Shown here: one piece after another, positions 6,710 to 13,303 of the stretch
How positions within the stretch are numbered: the first letter of the stretch is position 1
How the letters are laid out: the number at the start of each line of letters is the position of its first letter
Origin: Phycicoccus sp. Soil748
Lineage (GTDB): Bacteria; Actinomycetota; Actinomycetes; Actinomycetales; Dermatophilaceae
DNA: 53,246 nt
Reading direction: 5' to 3'
Assembly: GCF_001428025.1 (NCBI RefSeq)
Contig: NZ_LMSC01000005.1
Location: 174,717 to 227,962, forward strand
The notes under the pieces: model-generated
Database searches by the model: none
The model's input: only the letters and a program-made list of their open reading frames with translations
What the model was told of the DNA's origin: nothing
Made by a program: the position numbers and the translations under genes

Positions 6710-7590
6710 GCGGCTGAGTCTCCTTGTGCGGCAACGGCATCCGTGGCGGCCTCGGCGAGCACGAGGTGGGCGAGCTGCGTGGCCAGCATCGCGCGGTACT
6801 CGGCCGTCGCATGGATGTCGTCCTCCGGCGCGAGGTGCTCGCGGACGAGGTCGTCGCAGGCCGACCAGTCGATTTCTCCTGGCGCCTGCCCGCGGCACGC
6901 CTCCGTCACGTCGAGGATGCCGGGCACGTCGGTGACGGAGACGAACGACAGCCGGGCCGAGGACACGACACCGTCCTCGACGGCGACCGCGGCGGCCACC
7001 CCGGCGAGCGCGTAGTCGCCGTGGCGACGAGCGCGCTCGGCAAAGGCCGTCCCCGTGGTGGCGCCGAACAGGGGGAAGCGGACGCCGACCGCCAGCTCGT
7101 CCGGCTCCAACGCCGTCTCCATGGGGCCGAGGAAGAAGTCGTGGCAAGGGATCTCGCGCGCCCCCCGGGCACTTGCCACCTCCACCACGCCACCGGTGAG
7201 GGCGAGGACCGCCGGCATCTCCCCGGCCGGGTCGGCGTGGACGATGGAGCCGACCGTCGTGCCGCGGTTGCGGATCACGGGGTGGGCCACGTGCCGCACC
7301 ACGCGGCGCAGCAGCGGCGACGCGCCGTACACCACCTGGTCGTGCTCGAGCCGTGCGTGCCGGACCAGGGCACCCACCCGTACCGCGTCCGCGGTCACCG
7401 TCAGGTCGTCGAGCCCGCTGACGGCGTTGACGTCGACGAGGTGGGCCGGCGACGCGAGCCGCATGTTGAGGATGGGGATCAGGCTCTGACCGCCCGCAAG
7501 CACCTTGCCGTCGTGCCCGACCCGCGCAAGCACCTCCACGGCCTCCTCGACGGTGCGAGGCGCGTGGTGCACGAACGGTGCCGGCTTCAC
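6706..7590 (-). CDS. Molybdenum hydroxylase medium subunit, FAD-binding
   Basis: 294 residues. FAD-binding motifs of the family are clear: AGGQSLIPILNMRLA near residues 32-46 and RNRGTTVGSIVHADP about 70 residues later, followed by the CO dehydrogenase flavoprotein C-terminal domain. The GTG start at 7590 overlaps the permease stop (GTGA), giving VKPAPFVHHAP. It accepts electrons from the iron-sulfur subunit. With CoxG present, the likely final acceptor is the membrane quinone pool and not only NAD or oxygen; this is inference. Confidence 0.94.
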   Translation of the reverse strand: MKPAPFVHHAPRTVEEAVEVLARVGHDGKVLAGGQSLIPILNMRLASPAHLVDVNAVSGLDDLTVTADAVRVGALVRHARLEHDQVVYGASPLLRRVVRHVAHPVIRNRGTTVGSIVHADPAGEMPAVLALTGGVVEVASARGAREIPCHDFFLGPMETALEPDELAVGVRFPLFGATTGTAFAERARRHGDYALAGVAAAVAVEDGVVSSARLSFVSVTDVPGILDVTEACRGQAPGEIDWSACDDLVREHLAPEDDIHATAEYRAMLATQLAHLVLAEAATDAVAAQGDSAA

Positions 7591-9149
7591 GAGCGGCCGT
7601 CCCGCGTCCCCTCCGTGCGCGACGCGTCCCGGTCTCCGACCCGGTCTCCGGCCTGGTAGAGGTCGTCGACGTCGCTCTCGCCGTAGGTGTCGCGCCCGAG
7701 CACGATGCCGGCGCCGCCGGGGCGGTTCGCACGGTCGCGCAGCTCGCGCGGGGCCACCGCCTTGGCCAGGTGGTAGCCGCCCACCGCGACGATGGTGCCG
7801 AGGGCGATGCCGCTCAGGGAGAAGTTGTCGGTGAACTTGATGGCGACGTTGCCGATGCCCATGATGATGCCGGCGGCCAGGGGCACGAGGTTGATCGGGT
7901 TGCCGAAGTCGACCCCGTTCTCCTTCCAGATCTTGGCGCCGAGCAGGCCGATCATGCCGTAGAGGACCACGGTGATCCCGCCGAGGACGCCGCCCGGCAC
8001 CGAGGCGACCAGCGCACCGAACTTGGGGGAGAGGCCGAACAGGACGGCCACGAGTGCGGCGACGTAGTAGGCGGCTGTCGAGTAGACGCGTGTGGCCGCC
8101 ATGACTCCGATGTTCTCGGCGTAGGTCGTGGTCGGGGAACCGCCGACCGAGGAGGCGAGGGCGGTGCCGATGCCGTCGGCGGCGATGGCGCGGCCCATGT
8201 AGGGGTCGAGGTTGTGGCCGGTCATCTCGGCGACGGCCTTGACGTGCCCGGTGTTCTCGGCGATCAGCGCGATGACGGCGGGGAGCACCAGCAGGATCGC
8301 CGTCATCGAGAACGACGGGGTGTGCCACCCGACGACCTCCTTGCCGTCGGCAGCGATCGTCGTCTGCGACGGGAAGCCGAACCACGCGGCCTCCTTGACG
8401 GCCCCGAAGCTCGTGCGGAAGTGCTCGAACGGGGTGGCGACGCAGTACGTGCCGGCCGCCTGGCAGGCCTTGCCGGCACCGTCGAGGAGGTTCTGCCCGG
8501 GCAGGGCGCTGGTGAGCTGGCCCGCGGTCTTGTCGAGGACCCACGACAGGACCGTGCCGAAGATGAGCGCGAGGAAGACGGCGATGCGGCCGATGAACCC
8601 GCGGAAGGCGACCGCGCAGACGATGGTGAAGACCATGACGAGCAGGGCGACCCACTGGTCCTGCGGCCAGTAGATCCCGGCGACGACGGGCGCGAGGTTG
8701 AAGCCGATGAGCATGACGACCGCGCCGGTCACCGAGGCCGGCAGCACGCGGTGGAGCAGGCCGGAGCCCAGGAAGTGGATGAGGATGCCGACCGCGGCGA
8801 GCACCAGGCCCGCGACGAGGATCGCGCCGGTGACCTCCTTGGAGTCCCCGCCCTGGGCGCGGATCGCCGCGACACCGCCGACGAACGACGCGGACGTGCC
8901 GAGGTAGCTCGGCACCCGTCCGGAGACGATGAGCAGGAACACGATCGTCGCGATGCCGCTCATCATGATCGCGAGCTGCGGGTTGAGGCCCATGACGATC
9001 GGGAAGACGAAGGTCGCCCCGAACATCGCCACGACGTGCTGGGCGCCGAGCCCGACCGTCTTGCCCCAGCTCAGGCGTTCGTCCGGCGCGACGACGTCGT
9101 CCGGTCCGGCGAGGTTGCCGTCGCCGTGCAGCTTCCAGCCCAGTGCCAT
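7587..9149 (-). CDS. Uracil/xanthine permease family (NCS2) transporter
   Basis: 520 residues with about 12-14 hydrophobic segments, typical of NCS2 (UraA/UapA-type) nucleobase:cation symporters. The conserved IALIAENTGHVKAV segment carries the E and N residues that contact the base, and GGSPTTTYAENIG is the second half-helix motif. The ATG at 9149 has AAGGAG 6-7 nt upstream. It is the first gene of the hydroxylase operon and very likely imports the ring compound that the enzyme oxidises. An extra extramembrane loop near residues 225-275 has a pair of cysteines. NCS2 members divide into uracil, xanthine and urate carriers, and I cannot separate these by eye. Confidence 0.93.
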   Translation of the reverse strand: MALGWKLHGDGNLAGPDDVVAPDERLSWGKTVGLGAQHVVAMFGATFVFPIVMGLNPQLAIMMSGIATIVFLLIVSGRVPSYLGTSASFVGGVAAIRAQGGDSKEVTGAILVAGLVLAAVGILIHFLGSGLLHRVLPASVTGAVVMLIGFNLAPVVAGIYWPQDQWVALLVMVFTIVCAVAFRGFIGRIAVFLALIFGTVLSWVLDKTAGQLTSALPGQNLLDGAGKACQAAGTYCVATPFEHFRTSFGAVKEAAWFGFPSQTTIAADGKEVVGWHTPSFSMTAILLVLPAVIALIAENTGHVKAVAEMTGHNLDPYMGRAIAADGIGTALASSVGGSPTTTYAENIGVMAATRVYSTAAYYVAALVAVLFGLSPKFGALVASVPGGVLGGITVVLYGMIGLLGAKIWKENGVDFGNPINLVPLAAGIIMGIGNVAIKFTDNFSLSGIALGTIVAVGGYHLAKAVAPRELRDRANRPGGAGIVLGRDTYGESDVDDLYQAGDRVGDRDASRTEGTRDGRS

Positions 9150-9280
9150 GAGGACTCCTTGTCGACAGCCGCGCGGCGGCGAGACCCTTGCGAACCCTTC
9201 AGATCCTTCCGGACCCCCGTCGCCGGGGATAGGCGCAAACTACTGGGACCGGCAGGTCCCGCGTTGGGCAATTGTTGCTA
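9150..9280. promoter_or_regulatory. Leader and promoter region of the permease-hydroxylase operon
   Basis: Reading the minus strand, an IR GGGACC-TGCC-GGTCCC (9245-9260) is followed about 20 nt later by TATCCC as a possible -10, then three AAGG[A/G] elements spaced 9-10 nt apart, then the AAGGAG site. The inverted repeat is an operator candidate, and PucR is the obvious regulator to test. The assignment rests on position and symmetry only. Confidence 0.35.
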
Positions 9281-9318
9281 TCAGATGCCACGCATCTGGT
9301 GGACCTCGATGGCGATGG
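9274..9318 (-). repeat. Displaced copy of the pucR 3' end (left boundary of nuclease cassette)
   Basis: This block matches the end of pucR at 10623-10667 with 40 of 45 positions identical, including an exact 26-nt core at 9281-9306. Read on the minus strand it encodes AIAIEVHQMRGI and stop, compared with ALALKVHQMRGI and stop in pucR. The fragment has no gene body behind it, since similarity stops a few codons upstream. It contains the palindrome CAGATGC-CAC-GCATCTG at 9282-9298. It is either an attachment-site-like target duplication or a decayed pucR paralogue tail. Confidence 0.8.
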
Positions 9319-9375
9319 CGTGGCGGCTCACGGGGCGTCGAGGCGTGGCGGCGTCGGGGCGTCGCACCCGCGCCC

Positions 9376-9492
9376 AGTGATCACAGTGAGCGCTCGGGAC
9401 TCCTCCACCGCCTCAGCACCCGCGCCGAGTGATCACAGTGACCTGCAGGGACCCCTGCGCCGCGTCACGCCAGCCCCCAGTGATCACAGTGA
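9376..9492 (+). repeat. Three direct copies of TGATCACAGTGA, left flank of nuclease gene
   Basis: Exact 12-nt cores lie at 9378-9389, 9430-9441 and 9481-9492, spaced 52 and 51 nt. All three are preceded by AG. The first two share 25 of 26 bases including the upstream GCACCCGCGCC segment, while the intervening sequences differ. Matching copies in inverted orientation lie on the other side of the nuclease gene. Confidence 0.88.
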
Positions 9493-9518
9493 CCGGTGCC
9501 GTCGCGCCGTGGGCCGGC

Positions 9519-10427
9519 TCAGCCGCGGCCGGGGAAGTGCCCGCGCCAGCCGTCGCTGGTCCGGACGACCAGGCCGCGCTGCCGCAGGGCGACCGCGACC
9601 CGGTCGACCGTGGCGCCTGGTGTGCCGAAGACATCCACTGACAGGGCGACGAGCAGGCGCCACCCGCGCCCGTCCAGGTCCTCCCGCCTCCGCACGTCCC
9701 TGACCCACTGTCGTGAGTCCTCGGAGTGCTGGCGTCCGTCGTACTCGAGTGCGAGCTTCACCTGCGGCCAGCTCAGGTCGAAGCGGTAGGTCCAGCCGCC
9801 GTTCTCGTCGCGGAGGACGTGGTTGACCACGGGTTCGGGGAGACCGGCGAGGACCACGAGCAGTCGCAACCGGGTCTCCATCGGCGAGTCCACACCGCTG
9901 CGCACGAGAGCCGCCGCGCGACGGGCCAGGGCTGCCCGCGGTCCACGGTGCTGCCGCGCCTGCTCGACCAACAGTTCTGGAGTGGTGCGTCGGGCGCGCA
10001 CGAGCGAGTCACCGAGGACCACGAGGTCGACCAGGTCCAACCTCGTCGCCAGGTCCAGGAACGTGCGCTCCGGCCCGGTGACCGGGAGCCCCCGCAGCCT
10101 CAGGGCCGGCGGCATGCGTCGCGCCCTGCGCGCCTCGAGCTCGGGACGGCGTATCGGGCGGGCGTAGGGCACGGTGACCTGCACCCGGGACCGCGACGGG
10201 ACGACGCCACCCCACAGCCGTGCGGCGGTCTCGTGGCTGAACACCGCGCCCTGCGGCAGGACGAGGAGCGCGGCAGCGCACCGCATACGCAGGGTGTCGT
10301 CCACGCAGTCCTGGACGTGGACGCCGCGGAGCACGCGCCGGAACCGTGGTCCGCGGAGGGTGCTCCGCGGCACCGGAGACCGTGACGTCTCGAACGGTGT
10401 CGCCTCTGGGGTCGCGGGAGCCACCAC
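9519..10427 (-). CDS. AbiEi-like N-domain / DUF559 (Vsr-like) nuclease protein
   Basis: 302 residues. The N-terminal 150 residues resemble the AbiEi antitoxin-type domain found in many single-gene actinobacterial proteins. The C-terminal part is a DUF559 restriction-endonuclease-like fold: FDLSWPQVKLALEYDGRQHS supplies the D...ExD catalytic pattern, followed by a QW..D...RRE helix and the GWRLLVAL strand. The GTG at 10427 is the first start in frame. No toxin (AbiEii) gene is adjacent. The gene lies between pucR and the permease operon, flanked on both sides by TGATCACAGTGA repeats and, outside these, by two copies of the pucR 3' end. A role as a lone DNA nuclease of a small mobile cassette is inferred; its cut site is unknown. 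Confidence 0.85.
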   Translation of the reverse strand: MVAPATPEATPFETSRSPVPRSTLRGPRFRRVLRGVHVQDCVDDTLRMRCAAALLVLPQGAVFSHETAARLWGGVVPSRSRVQVTVPYARPIRRPELEARRARRMPPALRLRGLPVTGPERTFLDLATRLDLVDLVVLGDSLVRARRTTPELLVEQARQHRGPRAALARRAAALVRSGVDSPMETRLRLLVVLAGLPEPVVNHVLRDENGGWTYRFDLSWPQVKLALEYDGRQHSEDSRQWVRDVRRREDLDGRGWRLLVALSVDVFGTPGATVDRVAVALRQRGLVVRTSDGWRGHFPGRG

Positions 10428-10484
10428 CCGAGGGTGGACCAGGTGGGACAGGCCCGTCGCCGTTGTCCACAGGCCCTGGGCTGC

Positions 10485-10597
10485 TCACTGTGATCAGCTG
10501 GGGCTGTCGACGGGACGTGGACGGCTCCTGCACTGCTCACTGTGATCAATGGGGGCTGTTGGCGACACGGTCCCAGGGACGGGAGTGTTCACAGTGA
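10485..10597 (-). repeat. Inverted copies of TGATCACAGTGA, right flank of nuclease gene
   Basis: Exact minus-strand copies lie at 10485-10496 and 10537-10548, again 52 nt apart. A third, one-mismatch copy in plus orientation (TGTTCACAGTGA) lies at 10586-10597. On the minus strand the first two are preceded by CAGCCCC-type sequence, as in the third left-hand copy. The nearest copy is about 58 nt upstream of the nuclease start, so these could also be operators of that gene. Confidence 0.85.
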
Positions 10598-10622
10598 CCA
10601 GCCCCGTCACCGCACCCACCGA

Positions 10623-10667
10623 GCTGCTGTCAGATGCCACGCATCTGGTGGACCTTGAGGGCGAGGG
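10623..10667 (-). repeat. pucR 3' end, right copy of the 45-nt duplication
   Basis: The exact 26-nt core is 10630-10655 and starts with the pucR stop codon. It includes CAGATGC-CAC-GCATCTG (10631-10647), a perfect 7-bp stem with a 3-nt loop, which as RNA could also act as a short terminator hairpin at the pucR stop. Confidence 0.8.
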
Positions 10668-12387
10668 CCAGCTTGAGTCGCAGCTGCGGGTCGGAGGTGA
10701 ACGGCCCGAGCATCCGTTCGAGCTTGGCGATCCGGTAGCGCAGCGTGTTGTAGTGGAAGAACAGGGTGCGCGCGGTCTCGGCGACGTTGAGGTTGGTGTC
10801 GAGGAGCACGCTGAGCGTCTGGCGCAGGTCGGCGTGATCGGGGACGTCGTCGGTGGCGAGCGGGCCCAGCGACTCCTCGACGAAGCGGCGCAGGTCCGCG
10901 CTGTCGGGGATGAGCGAGAGCAGCCGGAAGATGCCCAGCCCGTCGAAGTGGGTCAGGGCCGAGGCGCCGTGCAGCTGCCGCCCCACGCTGACGGCGCTGA
11001 GGGCCTCCTCGTAGGCGGCGCGCAGGTCCGCGACGGAGTCGATGGGTCGTGACACACCGGTCGAGAACGTCCGCCGACCGCCGCCACCGTCACCGCGGAC
11101 CACGCGTACGACGTCGCCTACCGACCGCATGACCTCGTCGGTGTCCCAGTCGGCGGGTACGGCGTGCAGGGCCACGACCTCCTGGCTGAACCCCACGACC
11201 GCCGCCCGCGGGTCCCGCACGCCGACGGCCTGGATCCACGCGCGCGCGAACCGCTGCTGGAGGGACGCGACCTCCTCGGGCGCCCGGGTGGTGCGGCTGT
11301 CGTCCTCGTCGGTCTCGGCGACCACGACCACGAGCCGCCGGTCGAGGTCCCACCCGAGCGCGCTGGCGTGGGCGACGGCGTCCGCGGGTGTCCCGGCGCG
11401 TCCGGACAGGGCGTCCCGGAGGAACTCCGCGCGGTACTTGCCCTCCACCGCCGACACGGCCTGCTCCTTGGTGATGGCCAGTGCGGCCACCGTCGCTGCG
11501 CGCTCGAGCAGGTGCACGTCGTCGGACGTGAGGTCGCGGTCGACGAACGCCACGAGCAGCCCGTGGTCGAGCTGGCCCGCGACGATCCGGACGAGGGCGC
11601 GACCTGCGTTGCCGGTCCGGGGGTCGCGGATGCCCACGGGCTCGTGCTCGGTGATGAGGCGCCCGGTGCGGTCGAAGCAGTCGAGGGCCAGCGCGGCCGC
11701 CAGGTCGTCCTCGGCGCCGGCGCTCGCGACGAGCCGCCCGTCGGTGGTCGTCACCATGGTGGCGCCCCCGAGGAAGCCGGCGAGCCGCTGGCAGAGGTCC
11801 TGGAGGCCGCCGCCCGCGAGCACCACCCCGACGAGGATCTGGTGCGCCTCGTCGACGCGCTCGAGGATCTCGGCCTGCTGGTCGAGCAGCGCGCCGAGGA
11901 CCTCGGTCACGACACGCTCGGCGCTCGGGGCTGCGGTCAGCACGACCGGGGTGCCGACCTGCTCCCCGAACGCCTGCCACCCAGATGCCCCCGCGCCGCC
12001 TCCACGCGTGACGACGAGCGCAGCAGCGGTACGCAGCGCAGCCACCGCAGCGGGGGAGCCGAGGTCCCGTGGGGTGACCGCGGAGGGGTCCACGCACAGG
12101 AGCTGGTGGTCGAGGCGGAGGTCCTGCACGGGTGCCGCGTTGGTGGGCGAGGCGTCGAGCAGGCGCGCCCGGGTGACGACCCGAGCCGCACTGGCCGAGG
12201 ACCCTGTGATGGAGTCCGCCGTGTCCACGGGGTGCAGGGCGCCGTCGCGCAGCGAGGGCAGCTCGAGCAGCCGCTCGAGGGGCAGCCCGGTCACGAGCTC
12301 GCGGGCCTTGAGCGCGCTCGACGGAGGGCTCGCGGCGGCTGTCAACTCCGCGTCACGGACGCCCGCATCGTTGGCAACATTCACCAT
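10630..12387 (-). CDS. PucR family transcriptional regulator
   Basis: 585 residues. An N-terminal PucR-type ligand domain (first ~160 residues) is followed by a GAF-like middle, a CdaR GGDEF-like region and a C-terminal PucR helix-turn-helix (NVAETARTLFFHYNTLRYRI), ending HQMRGI. This matches the purine-catabolism regulator PucR/CdaR family, whose members usually sense pathway intermediates and activate. The ATG at 12387 is chosen because TACAGT, a good -10 element, ends exactly 6 nt before it (leaderless start). Upstream in-frame codons lie in the divergent gene's leader. It sits between the carbamoyltransferase-like operon (divergent) and the permease-hydroxylase operon (same strand), so it probably controls both. 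Its last 45 nt are duplicated at 9274-9318. Confidence 0.92.
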   Translation of the reverse strand: MVNVANDAGVRDAELTAAASPPSSALKARELVTGLPLERLLELPSLRDGALHPVDTADSITGSSASAARVVTRARLLDASPTNAAPVQDLRLDHQLLCVDPSAVTPRDLGSPAAVAALRTAAALVVTRGGGAGASGWQAFGEQVGTPVVLTAAPSAERVVTEVLGALLDQQAEILERVDEAHQILVGVVLAGGGLQDLCQRLAGFLGGATMVTTTDGRLVASAGAEDDLAAALALDCFDRTGRLITEHEPVGIRDPRTGNAGRALVRIVAGQLDHGLLVAFVDRDLTSDDVHLLERAATVAALAITKEQAVSAVEGKYRAEFLRDALSGRAGTPADAVAHASALGWDLDRRLVVVVAETDEDDSRTTRAPEEVASLQQRFARAWIQAVGVRDPRAAVVGFSQEVVALHAVPADWDTDEVMRSVGDVVRVVRGDGGGGRRTFSTGVSRPIDSVADLRAAYEEALSAVSVGRQLHGASALTHFDGLGIFRLLSLIPDSADLRRFVEESLGPLATDDVPDHADLRQTLSVLLDTNLNVAETARTLFFHYNTLRYRIAKLERMLGPFTSDPQLRLKLALALKVHQMRGI

Positions 12388-12393
12388 GAGGGG

Positions 12394-12399
12394 ACTGTA
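12394..12399 (-). promoter_or_regulatory. -10 element of pucR (TACAGT), leaderless
   Basis: On the minus strand TACAGT is followed by 6 nt and the pucR ATG, which puts the expected transcription start at the start codon. TAGCGT on the plus strand at 12411-12416 could be the -10 of the divergent DUF2877 operon, so the two promoters would lie back to back within 79 bp. Confidence 0.55.
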
Positions 12400-12466
12400 A
12401 CCGCACTGGGTAGCGTCGCACCGTCGGTCCCACCAGCCCGAGCCAGACTCTTGCACCGGAGGTCCT

Positions 12467-13303
12467 GTGGCGCAGCGCGAGCGGTCGTGGCCGGCGGCTG
12501 CCTCGTCGCGAGCCACTTCCGCGCTCGCCGGTCCACGCAGGGCCGCCACGGTGCTCGCCGCGCTCCCGCACGCTCTCTACCTGCGGTGCCACGACGGCTC
12601 GGTGCTCCCGGTGGTCACGGGCTCGGGCCTTCGCCTGCCGACCGCCCTCGTGCTCGCCTCGCCGGAGTCGCCGCACGGCTGGGACGTCCAACCCGGCGAC
12701 CCCGTGTGGGTGGGGGACGGCGAGGTCCGGCTGCCCCGGGCGACGGTGCGTGCCGTGCGGACCTGGGCGCCGGTGCCCTTCGGCGCAGCCCTGGCCCCGC
12801 CCGAGGCGGTGTCCTTGGTCGCCGACGGCGCGAGCGGGCAGTGGCAGGGCGTGGCCCTGTCGCTCGCCCGCGTGGCCCTGCGTGGTGACGACGTCACGGA
12901 CGCTGTTGCCGGCCTCGTGGGGAACGGCCCTGGCCTGACCCCGAGCGGCGACGACGTCCTGTGTGGCCTCCTGCTCGGCCTGCAGCCCGTGGCCCCCGCC
13001 CGGGACCGCGTGTGGGCGGCTGTCGCGCTGCGGCTCGGCGCCACGACGAGCCTGTCCGCCGTACTCCTCGGCGAGTCCGCTGCCGGGTATGCCGTGCCGG
13101 CCGTCCTGCGGCTCGGCTCGGCGCTGGTGGGTGGCTCAGCCGGGTACACCGACGACGCGCAGGTGCGTCGCGCCGTCCGGGAGGTCGTGGCCATCGGGCA
13201 CTCGTCCGGCGCCGACCTGCTCGCCGGGCTCGCCGCGGCCCTCCGGGCCCTCGCCGAGCCCGTGCGACGGTGTCCCCCCGCCGCCGTGGGGGTGCCCGCA
13301 TGA
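12467..13303 (+). CDS. DUF2877 protein, AllH-like carbamoyltransferase subunit
   Basis: 278 residues. The DUF2877 hallmarks are present: GNGPGLTPSGDDVLCGLL near residues 152-169 and GHSSGADLL near the C-terminus. The GTG start at 12467 has GGAGG 6 nt upstream. In E. coli the homologue YlbF (AllH) is reported to form oxamate carbamoyltransferase with FdrA (AllF) and YlbE (AllG), the last step of anaerobic allantoin use, giving carbamoyl phosphate from oxalurate. The stop overlaps the fdrA start (ATGA). The same three-gene set here, in the order H-F-G, strongly suggests a related carbamoyl transfer, although the actual substrate may differ. Confidence 0.88.
   Translation: MAQRERSWPAAASSRATSALAGPRRAATVLAALPHALYLRCHDGSVLPVVTGSGLRLPTALVLASPESPHGWDVQPGDPVWVGDGEVRLPRATVRAVRTWAPVPFGAALAPPEAVSLVADGASGQWQGVALSLARVALRGDDVTDAVAGLVGNGPGLTPSGDDVLCGLLLGLQPVAPARDRVWAAVALRLGATTSLSAVLLGESAAGYAVPAVLRLGSALVGGSAGYTDDAQVRRAVREVVAIGHSSGADLLAGLAAALRALAEPVRRCPPAAVGVPA

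Follow-up and report, generated by a model that had tools for sequence, protein, structure and literature searches.

The cassette between pucR and the permease gene

The window analysed here is a 53,246-nucleotide (nt) stretch of contig NZ_LMSC01000005.1 from Phycicoccus sp. Soil748, in which a gene for a putative nuclease lies, with short repeats on either side, between two copies of the 3' end of pucR; we refer to this interval as the cassette (Table 1). The two pucR-tail copies are in direct orientation and 44 bp long, with 40 identical positions and an exact core of 26 nt. An initial annotation of this DNA had already recognized both copies and the core, and the length it gave (45 nt, 40 of 45 identical) is revised here. 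The annotation had also described the displaced tail as lacking a gene body, which is what we see at the left copy: it continues directly into the permease upstream region, and the sequence that follows it (TAGCAACAATTGCCC) is found upstream of the permease in relatives.

In all ten congeners searched, pucR is followed by the permease gene after 144–372 nt, with a single tail and without any nuclease-profile match in between, as the annotation had predicted for relatives. Hence, the arrangement in Phycicoccus sp. Soil748, the only one of 11 genomes of the genus to carry it, is a derived insertion at the pucR 3' end with duplication of the target. We read the differences between the copies as showing that the left one kept the permease-side letters and the right one the pucR coding letters, each having probably drifted where it was free to do so.

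Within the cassette, the mirrored short repeats reported earlier are present as three copies of TGATCACAGTGA downstream of the nuclease gene on the plus strand and two upstream on the minus strand. The nuclease gene is the sole open reading frame (ORF) of the interval with a Pfam match, as none of the ten other ORFs gave one at E 0.1, and no integrase or recombinase was detected by Pfam in any of these eleven ORFs, which bears out the description of the cassette as integrase-less. Since no Pfam match to a transposase was obtained either, and the duplication measures 44 bp, the cassette does not qualify as an insertion sequence or a miniature inverted-repeat transposable element.

Table 1. Features of the cassette and its neighbours, in positions of the window
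Feature	Position	Strand	Remarks
Nuclease, 302 aa: AbiEi-like N-terminal half and Vsr/DUF559-type (MTES_1575) C-terminal half	9519..10427	-	ORF, Pfam, Foldseek
Downstream array, three units, 52/51-nt register	9364..9518	+	TGATCACAGTGA at 9378-9389, 9430-9441 and 9481-9492
Upstream array, two inverted TGATCACAGTGA copies 52 nt apart	10485..10548	-	10485-10496 and 10537-10548
Third upstream copy TGTTCACAGTGA, degenerate and in the orientation opposite to the other two	10586..10597	+	
DnaA-box-like TTGTCCACAG (TGTGGACAA on the gene strand)	10463..10472	+	44 nt upstream of the GTG taken here as start
Displaced pucR 3'-end copy (target duplication, permease side)	9276..9319		40/44 identical to 10625-10668; followed by the TAGCAACAATTGCCC region
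Original copy: pucR 3' end and stop	10625..10668		Inverted repeat CAGATGC-GTG-GCATCTG inside
pucR, intact coding sequence	10630..12549	-	ORF; PucR HTH and GGDEF-like domains (Pfam)
Xanthine/uracil-type permease	7587..9149	-	Adjoins pucR in 10/10 congeners searched

The nuclease

The Pfam matches of the nuclease are weak and all below the curated cut-offs (MTES_1575, E 5e-6; DUF559, 1e-3; AbiEi_1, 2e-3). In an alignment (A3) of this protein (P0001) and 54 of 80 fetched loci, 54 of the 55 members matched PF18741 at E 0.01. Residues E184, E228, H234 and D244 are invariant among the 55 aligned sequences and D217 nearly so, a set that we tentatively liken to the EDxHD pattern of homing endonucleases. 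A structure predicted with the 55 sequences has a mean predicted local distance difference test (pLDDT) score of 93.9, and Foldseek placed the AbiEi antitoxin of a type IV toxin-antitoxin system (6y8q) first, at E 2.4e-4, through the N-terminal fold. The same half is matched by the AbiEi models of PADLOC (best E 1.5e-10). For the catalytic half, likeness was found to the fold of I-Bth0305I (3r3p, E 0.038) and of Vsr (1cw0, 0.14), with unrelated chains in between, and a profile search returned 3hrl at E 3.4e-4 and 3r3p at 0.075. The earlier call of a Vsr-like nuclease agrees with these matches, though their E-values are modest. Unlike I-Bth0305I and Vsr, however, the nuclease is fused to an AbiEi-like half, is chromosomal and almost absent from phage records, and is tied to private palindromes and a target duplication; unlike the AbiEi antitoxin, it contains a nuclease half and has no adjoining toxin partner.

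Repeats flanking related nucleases

Eleven nuclease paralogues were detectable in this genome, the pucR-locus gene included, and nine of them appear to have bracketing repeats that differ from one paralogue to the next (imperfect repeats at L018 and L020). Across the genus, 40 profile matches and L020 gave 41 places, of which 37 had loci that we used for comparing flanks; L037 and L048, two pieces of one split gene, are counted twice among these 37. A word of at least 19 nt was common to the left and right flanks in 20 of the 37 loci, compared with 49 of 1332 mismatched pairs. The outer flanks of 30 of these loci match a further locus in the comparison, placing the nucleases at orthologous positions, and this explains at least some of the matches among mismatched pairs.

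The same was seen in loci from other genomes, taken as the best 80 of 261 relatives, of which 68 were entered (12 with short flanks being excluded) and 65 passed the full-flank filter. A common flank word of at least 14 nt was present in 45 of the 65 (in-locus controls, 8/130; mismatched pairs, 119/4160), one of at least 18 nt in 30 (1/130 and 23/4160) and one of at least 20 nt in 25 (0/130 and 17/4160). In this set, which also underlies the motif-sharing, promoter-element and register counts, direct repeats in the flanks prefer a common spacing despite having different sequences: a spacing of 50–53 nt, close to five turns of DNA, was found in 39 of 65 loci compared with 4 of 65 controls for 9-nt words, and in 29 compared with 1 for 12-nt words. 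In the GAAGTC family of repeats described below the spacing is 39–40 nt.

An anonymous hairpin led to a further member. At a distant TGATCACAGTGA array (see below), the corresponding gap in relative G001 holds a different hairpin, and a search of the genus with it returned nine matches in 3 of 11 genomes. One copy, of the TTCGATGTAAACGCG family (L268, G001 contig C3, near 260865), adjoins a nuclease homologue that the earlier genus search had missed, a divergent DUF559-type nuclease (E 2.9e-14 with profile A2 and 2.6e-9 with A3, in a small ORF set). This gene is bracketed on both sides by the TTCGATGTAAACGCG hairpin, which is imperfect downstream, and the promoter element typical of these loci stands between the gene and the hairpin. 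For the other copies of the family, in G001, G002 and G007, no nuclease was found within 1.5 kb on each side.

Three further observations concern the flanks. At L049 (G007, contig C4) a perfect hairpin of GGTATGCCGCGTGGCTG and its complement stands to the left of the nuclease and almost whole on the right. Words of the GGTATGCC type are present in several other nuclease flanks. At L037/L048 (G001, contig C5, near 325000) the L011-type nuclease is matched in two separate pieces, as though the gene were split, and its flanking repeats persist.

Dispersed copies of the repeats

With up to two mismatches allowed, TGATCACAGTGA has 10 matches in the window, several of them being the two strands of one site, where 1.9 were expected, and none of 100 shuffles reached 10. 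The exact 12-mer occurs eight times in the 3.97-Mb genome, five times at the cassette and three times elsewhere, while its reversed control is absent; no exact match was found in the ten congeners. The three distant copies form an array with 52-nt spacing, 26 kb away, with no detected nuclease paralogue nearby. The initial annotation had expected sister cassettes with the same repeats at other loci, and this holds for the repeats, which recur in another gap, and not for the nuclease. The distant array appears to sit between two convergent stop codons; in G006 these stops are nearly adjacent. When this and a second array (L009 and L100) were compared with two relatives, the gaps of the relatives were empty or held other sequence. 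About 270 nt from the TGATCACAGTGA array (L009:7415-7470; contig C5 of this genome, near 157415) there is also an inverted repeat with 24-nt arms (GGGGGCCGAAAGGTGC...), a terminator or a further palindrome family.

Other palindromes are dispersed more widely. The palindrome of paralogue L014, GAAGTCYSRGACTTCGG, scored on both strands, matches 29 times each in this genome and G010 and 87 times in G009; the eight other genomes have no match, and the reversed control has none anywhere. Exactly these three genomes of the 11 (this one, G009 and G010) have an orthologous nuclease with GAAGTCYSRGACTTCGG in its flanks. In G002 and G003 the nuclease at this locus is flanked on both sides by a different palindrome, the second motif, which has 25 matches: 7 in G002, 13 in G003, 1 in G004, 4 in G007 and none in the other seven genomes. 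The idea that this motif is confined to nuclease-bearing genomes was thus abandoned, and we read the copies in G004 and G007 as relics.

We examined 27 dispersed arrays of the GAAGTC family, one lone GAAGTCYSRGACTTCGG match in G009 (contig C27) falling outside them. Each contains at least two palindromes, mostly 39–40 nt apart (three spacings in G009 are 36, 42 and 49 nt). By a heuristic gene call, 24 of the arrays are outside genes (12 between tandem genes, 10 between convergent ones, a single array between divergent genes and another at an edge) and 3 inside a predicted gene. In G009, GGCGTGT or its complement is present within the spacer of 26 of 28 pairs, but it was found in none of 15 pairs of this genome and none of 18 of G010; whole units were thus seemingly copied within G009.

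A DnaA-box-like promoter element

The nuclease genes share an upstream element, TGTGGAYRA, which was found on the gene strand within 250 nt upstream at 50 of 65 loci (on the other strand at 3) and at none of the 65 in five other regions; reversed and shuffled patterns gave at most one locus in any region. Its distance to the inferred start is 48–49 nt in 33 of 49 cases, and CAnnnT lies some 12 nt ahead of that start. The element matches TTGTCCACA, which the available part of one study gives as the high-affinity DnaA box for Streptomyces coelicolor and Mycobacterium tuberculosis (PMC4285127), and this suggests replication-linked expression or control by DnaA. TTGTCCACAG has 18 copies in this genome, of which three are upstream of nucleases identified in this analysis, three are in the dnaA-dnaN gap and one stands before a protein kinase gene (L263:1261-1310; contig C7:822160), at 48 nt and thus with the spacing seen at the nucleases.

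Distribution

At E 1e-5, profile A2 matched 128 of 296 genomes sampled from the phylum, and multiple copies were frequent (at most eight candidates per genome were scored), and the named loci fetched (the best 80 of 261) are nearly all actinobacterial, one record being titled Acidobacteria. Phage and plasmid collections were searched for a source of the nuclease and gave almost no matches: the 50,697 phage records contained a single partial match, the 72,556 plasmid records four, likewise partial, and viral contigs three short ones. The cassettes of the genus look mainly vertically inherited, because 30 of the 37 compared are at common loci; RAYTs, too, are described as vertically inherited at the species level in the available part of PMC3116915. 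For the L012 cassette beside rpsO, a clean empty site was sought and given up, the neighbourhood being variable in ten relatives. This rpsO-side gap (L058–L068) holds different genes in different congeners and is likely a hot spot of gene gain.

A Y1/RAYT transposase (PF01797) was found in none of the 11 genus genomes at E 0.001, while the same search was positive in 5 of 14 control genomes. In the open-licence literature of PubMed Central we found no earlier description of a nuclease-palindrome system, subscription papers and most preprints lying outside that scope, and its titles and abstract openings yielded no description of dispersed palindromes beside DUF559-type genes (one mentions CRISPR).

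Discussion

By comparison of genomes, we found that these nucleases are bracketed by repeats, that the repeats differ between paralogues and often keep a fixed register, that arrays occur without a nuclease, and that one cassette entered pucR with a 44-bp duplication. The association of nuclease and repeat is well supported. With each nuclease enclosed by a private palindrome and with arrays of that palindrome elsewhere, the system resembles REPIN/RAYT systems more than homing. According to the parts available of two studies (PMC3116915, PMC3733652), REPIN/RAYT systems and REPtrons likewise have an enzyme gene that is adjacent to its palindromes or enclosed by them, each enzyme with its own repeat, and foldable doublets with extragenic dispersal and ordered tandem clusters. 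Of the REPtron traits, an enzyme flanked by its own palindrome is found here, not at all loci (20 of 65 share no word of 14 nt), and extragenic dispersed doublets are found as the GAAGTC-family arrays. In contrast to the RAYT, a tyrosine (HUH/Y1) transposase, the enzyme here is an AbiEi-Vsr-type nuclease, and the units are often in direct register near 52 nt. Since no Y1 transposase was found in the genus, we do not class the system as a member of REPIN/RAYT, even though it may work alike. The available part of PMC3733652 further states that CGTC-tagged repetitive extragenic palindromes (REPs) have no dedicated transposase; these are similar in being palindromic extragenic repeats without a RAYT, a resemblance that we regard as a lead only.

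We consider it probable that the cassette is a member of a large actinobacterial class, each consisting of one AbiEi-Vsr-type nuclease and a private palindrome, similar to REPIN/RAYT but run by a nuclease. That the nuclease cuts and spreads the repeats is what we infer. In such a mechanism, the AbiEi-like half would bind the private palindrome and the Vsr-like half would nick or cut it. If a pair of such cuts, spaced by roughly one register, were filled in by the host's repair enzymes, arrays would grow in exact units, and a long target duplication would be left. Occasionally a unit or a whole cassette would be copied into a gene end, such as the pucR stop, and the nuclease would take the part that the RAYT has for REPINs without being a transposase. 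More tentatively, and with slightly less than even confidence, we propose that these are selfish, transposase-free 'nuclease REPtrons' widespread in actinobacteria, with a helical ruler of about 52 bp or five turns (40 bp in one subfamily), paired staggered cuts, repair-driven spread of units and cassettes, and expression timed by DnaA.

Several findings weigh against this interpretation. Among the fold matches in the PDB only AbiEi is below E 0.001. Bracketing is weak at L011 and L017 of this genome, 20 of the 65 loci from other genomes have no common flank word of at least 14 nt, and the 65 include syntenic orthologues, among which most of the motif sharing occurs, so that they are not all independent. 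G004 and G007, in which second-motif copies occur and no such nuclease was detected, speak against a strict pairing. Overall protein identity was rejected as a predictor of the motif in a comparison of 14 of the 37 genus loci, L014 and L043 being 74% identical with different motifs and L014 and L039 67% identical with the same one. At 44 bp, the duplication is shorter than the register of 52 nt, a difference that a cut-and-fill model still has to explain; no second target duplication was noticed among the cassette repeats of this genome and two arrays, the only places inspected, with none seen at L009 or L100. The TGATCACAGTGA arrays fold as single strands little better than shuffles (z of -0.7 downstream and -2.7 upstream, where units of two other repeat families reach -8.7 and -10.9), and the left pucR-tail copy, which forms a CAGATGC/GCATCTG stem, does only slightly better than shuffles (-1.4). 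Finally, copies of the DnaA-like box at dnaA-dnaN and before the protein kinase gene rule it out as exclusive to nucleases.

The strongest alternative, which we nevertheless think unlikely, is that the palindromes are operator sites and the AbiEi-like half a repressor, giving autoregulation and a small regulon in which nothing moves. AbiEi antitoxins are DNA-binding autorepressors that use inverted repeats, and the match of the N-terminal fold to AbiEi, the repeat set upstream of the nuclease start and the repeats near other genes all agree with such a role. However, repeats also stand downstream of the nuclease, the dispersed arrays lie ten times between convergent genes, three times inside genes and only once between divergent ones, and tandem units in exact register look copied; moreover, the promoter element common to the nuclease genes is a different one.

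Less likely again is that another enzyme, such as an undetected transposase, or replication slippage spreads the repeats, with the nuclease as a neighbour or passenger. Slippage is able to grow tandem units, movement by the nuclease is itself hypothetical, and G004 and G007 contain second-motif copies although no such nuclease was detected in them. Against this, repeat and nuclease are paired on both sides, orthologous cassettes at one locus differ in motif on both flanks, the 11 genomes contain no PF01797 gene (other transposase families were not searched), and the anonymous hairpin of G001 led, as a forward prediction, to a bracketed nuclease.

In the initial annotation the locus was tentatively taken for a minimal homing-type cassette that targets pucR. 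If the protein were a conventional, free-standing homing endonuclease, cutting the empty pucR end, with repair copying the cassette in and the palindromes as incidental terminators, this would fit the Vsr-like fold near I-Bth0305I, the empty pucR alleles and the target duplication. To our knowledge, however, homing as a rule leaves no 44-bp target duplication; in addition, no second pucR insertion was found in the 11 genomes, cassettes occur at many unrelated loci, mostly orthologous ones within the genus, and the palindromes that recur there are private and not generic. The proposal is therefore not supported in that form, and we regard conventional homing as quite improbable. A defence or toxin-antitoxin gene of the AbiE type, for which the PADLOC matches speak, has next to no probability, as the window contains no AbiEii partner beside the gene, which is flanked by pucR and the permease, and as we know of no AbiEi antitoxin that includes the nuclease half.

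Returning to the nuclease-run class, what would be new is an unrelated enzyme in a RAYT-like role, and this holds only if movement depends on the nuclease. RAYT transposases are today the main explanation of dispersed bacterial palindromes, and a nuclease that owns its repeat would, if confirmed, represent a second solution that evolved independently. Such a nuclease would also give a role to the large set of AbiEi/DUF559-type genes and offer many natural enzyme-palindrome pairs from which DNA specificity could be read, with the register of about 52 nt as a direct mechanical prediction.

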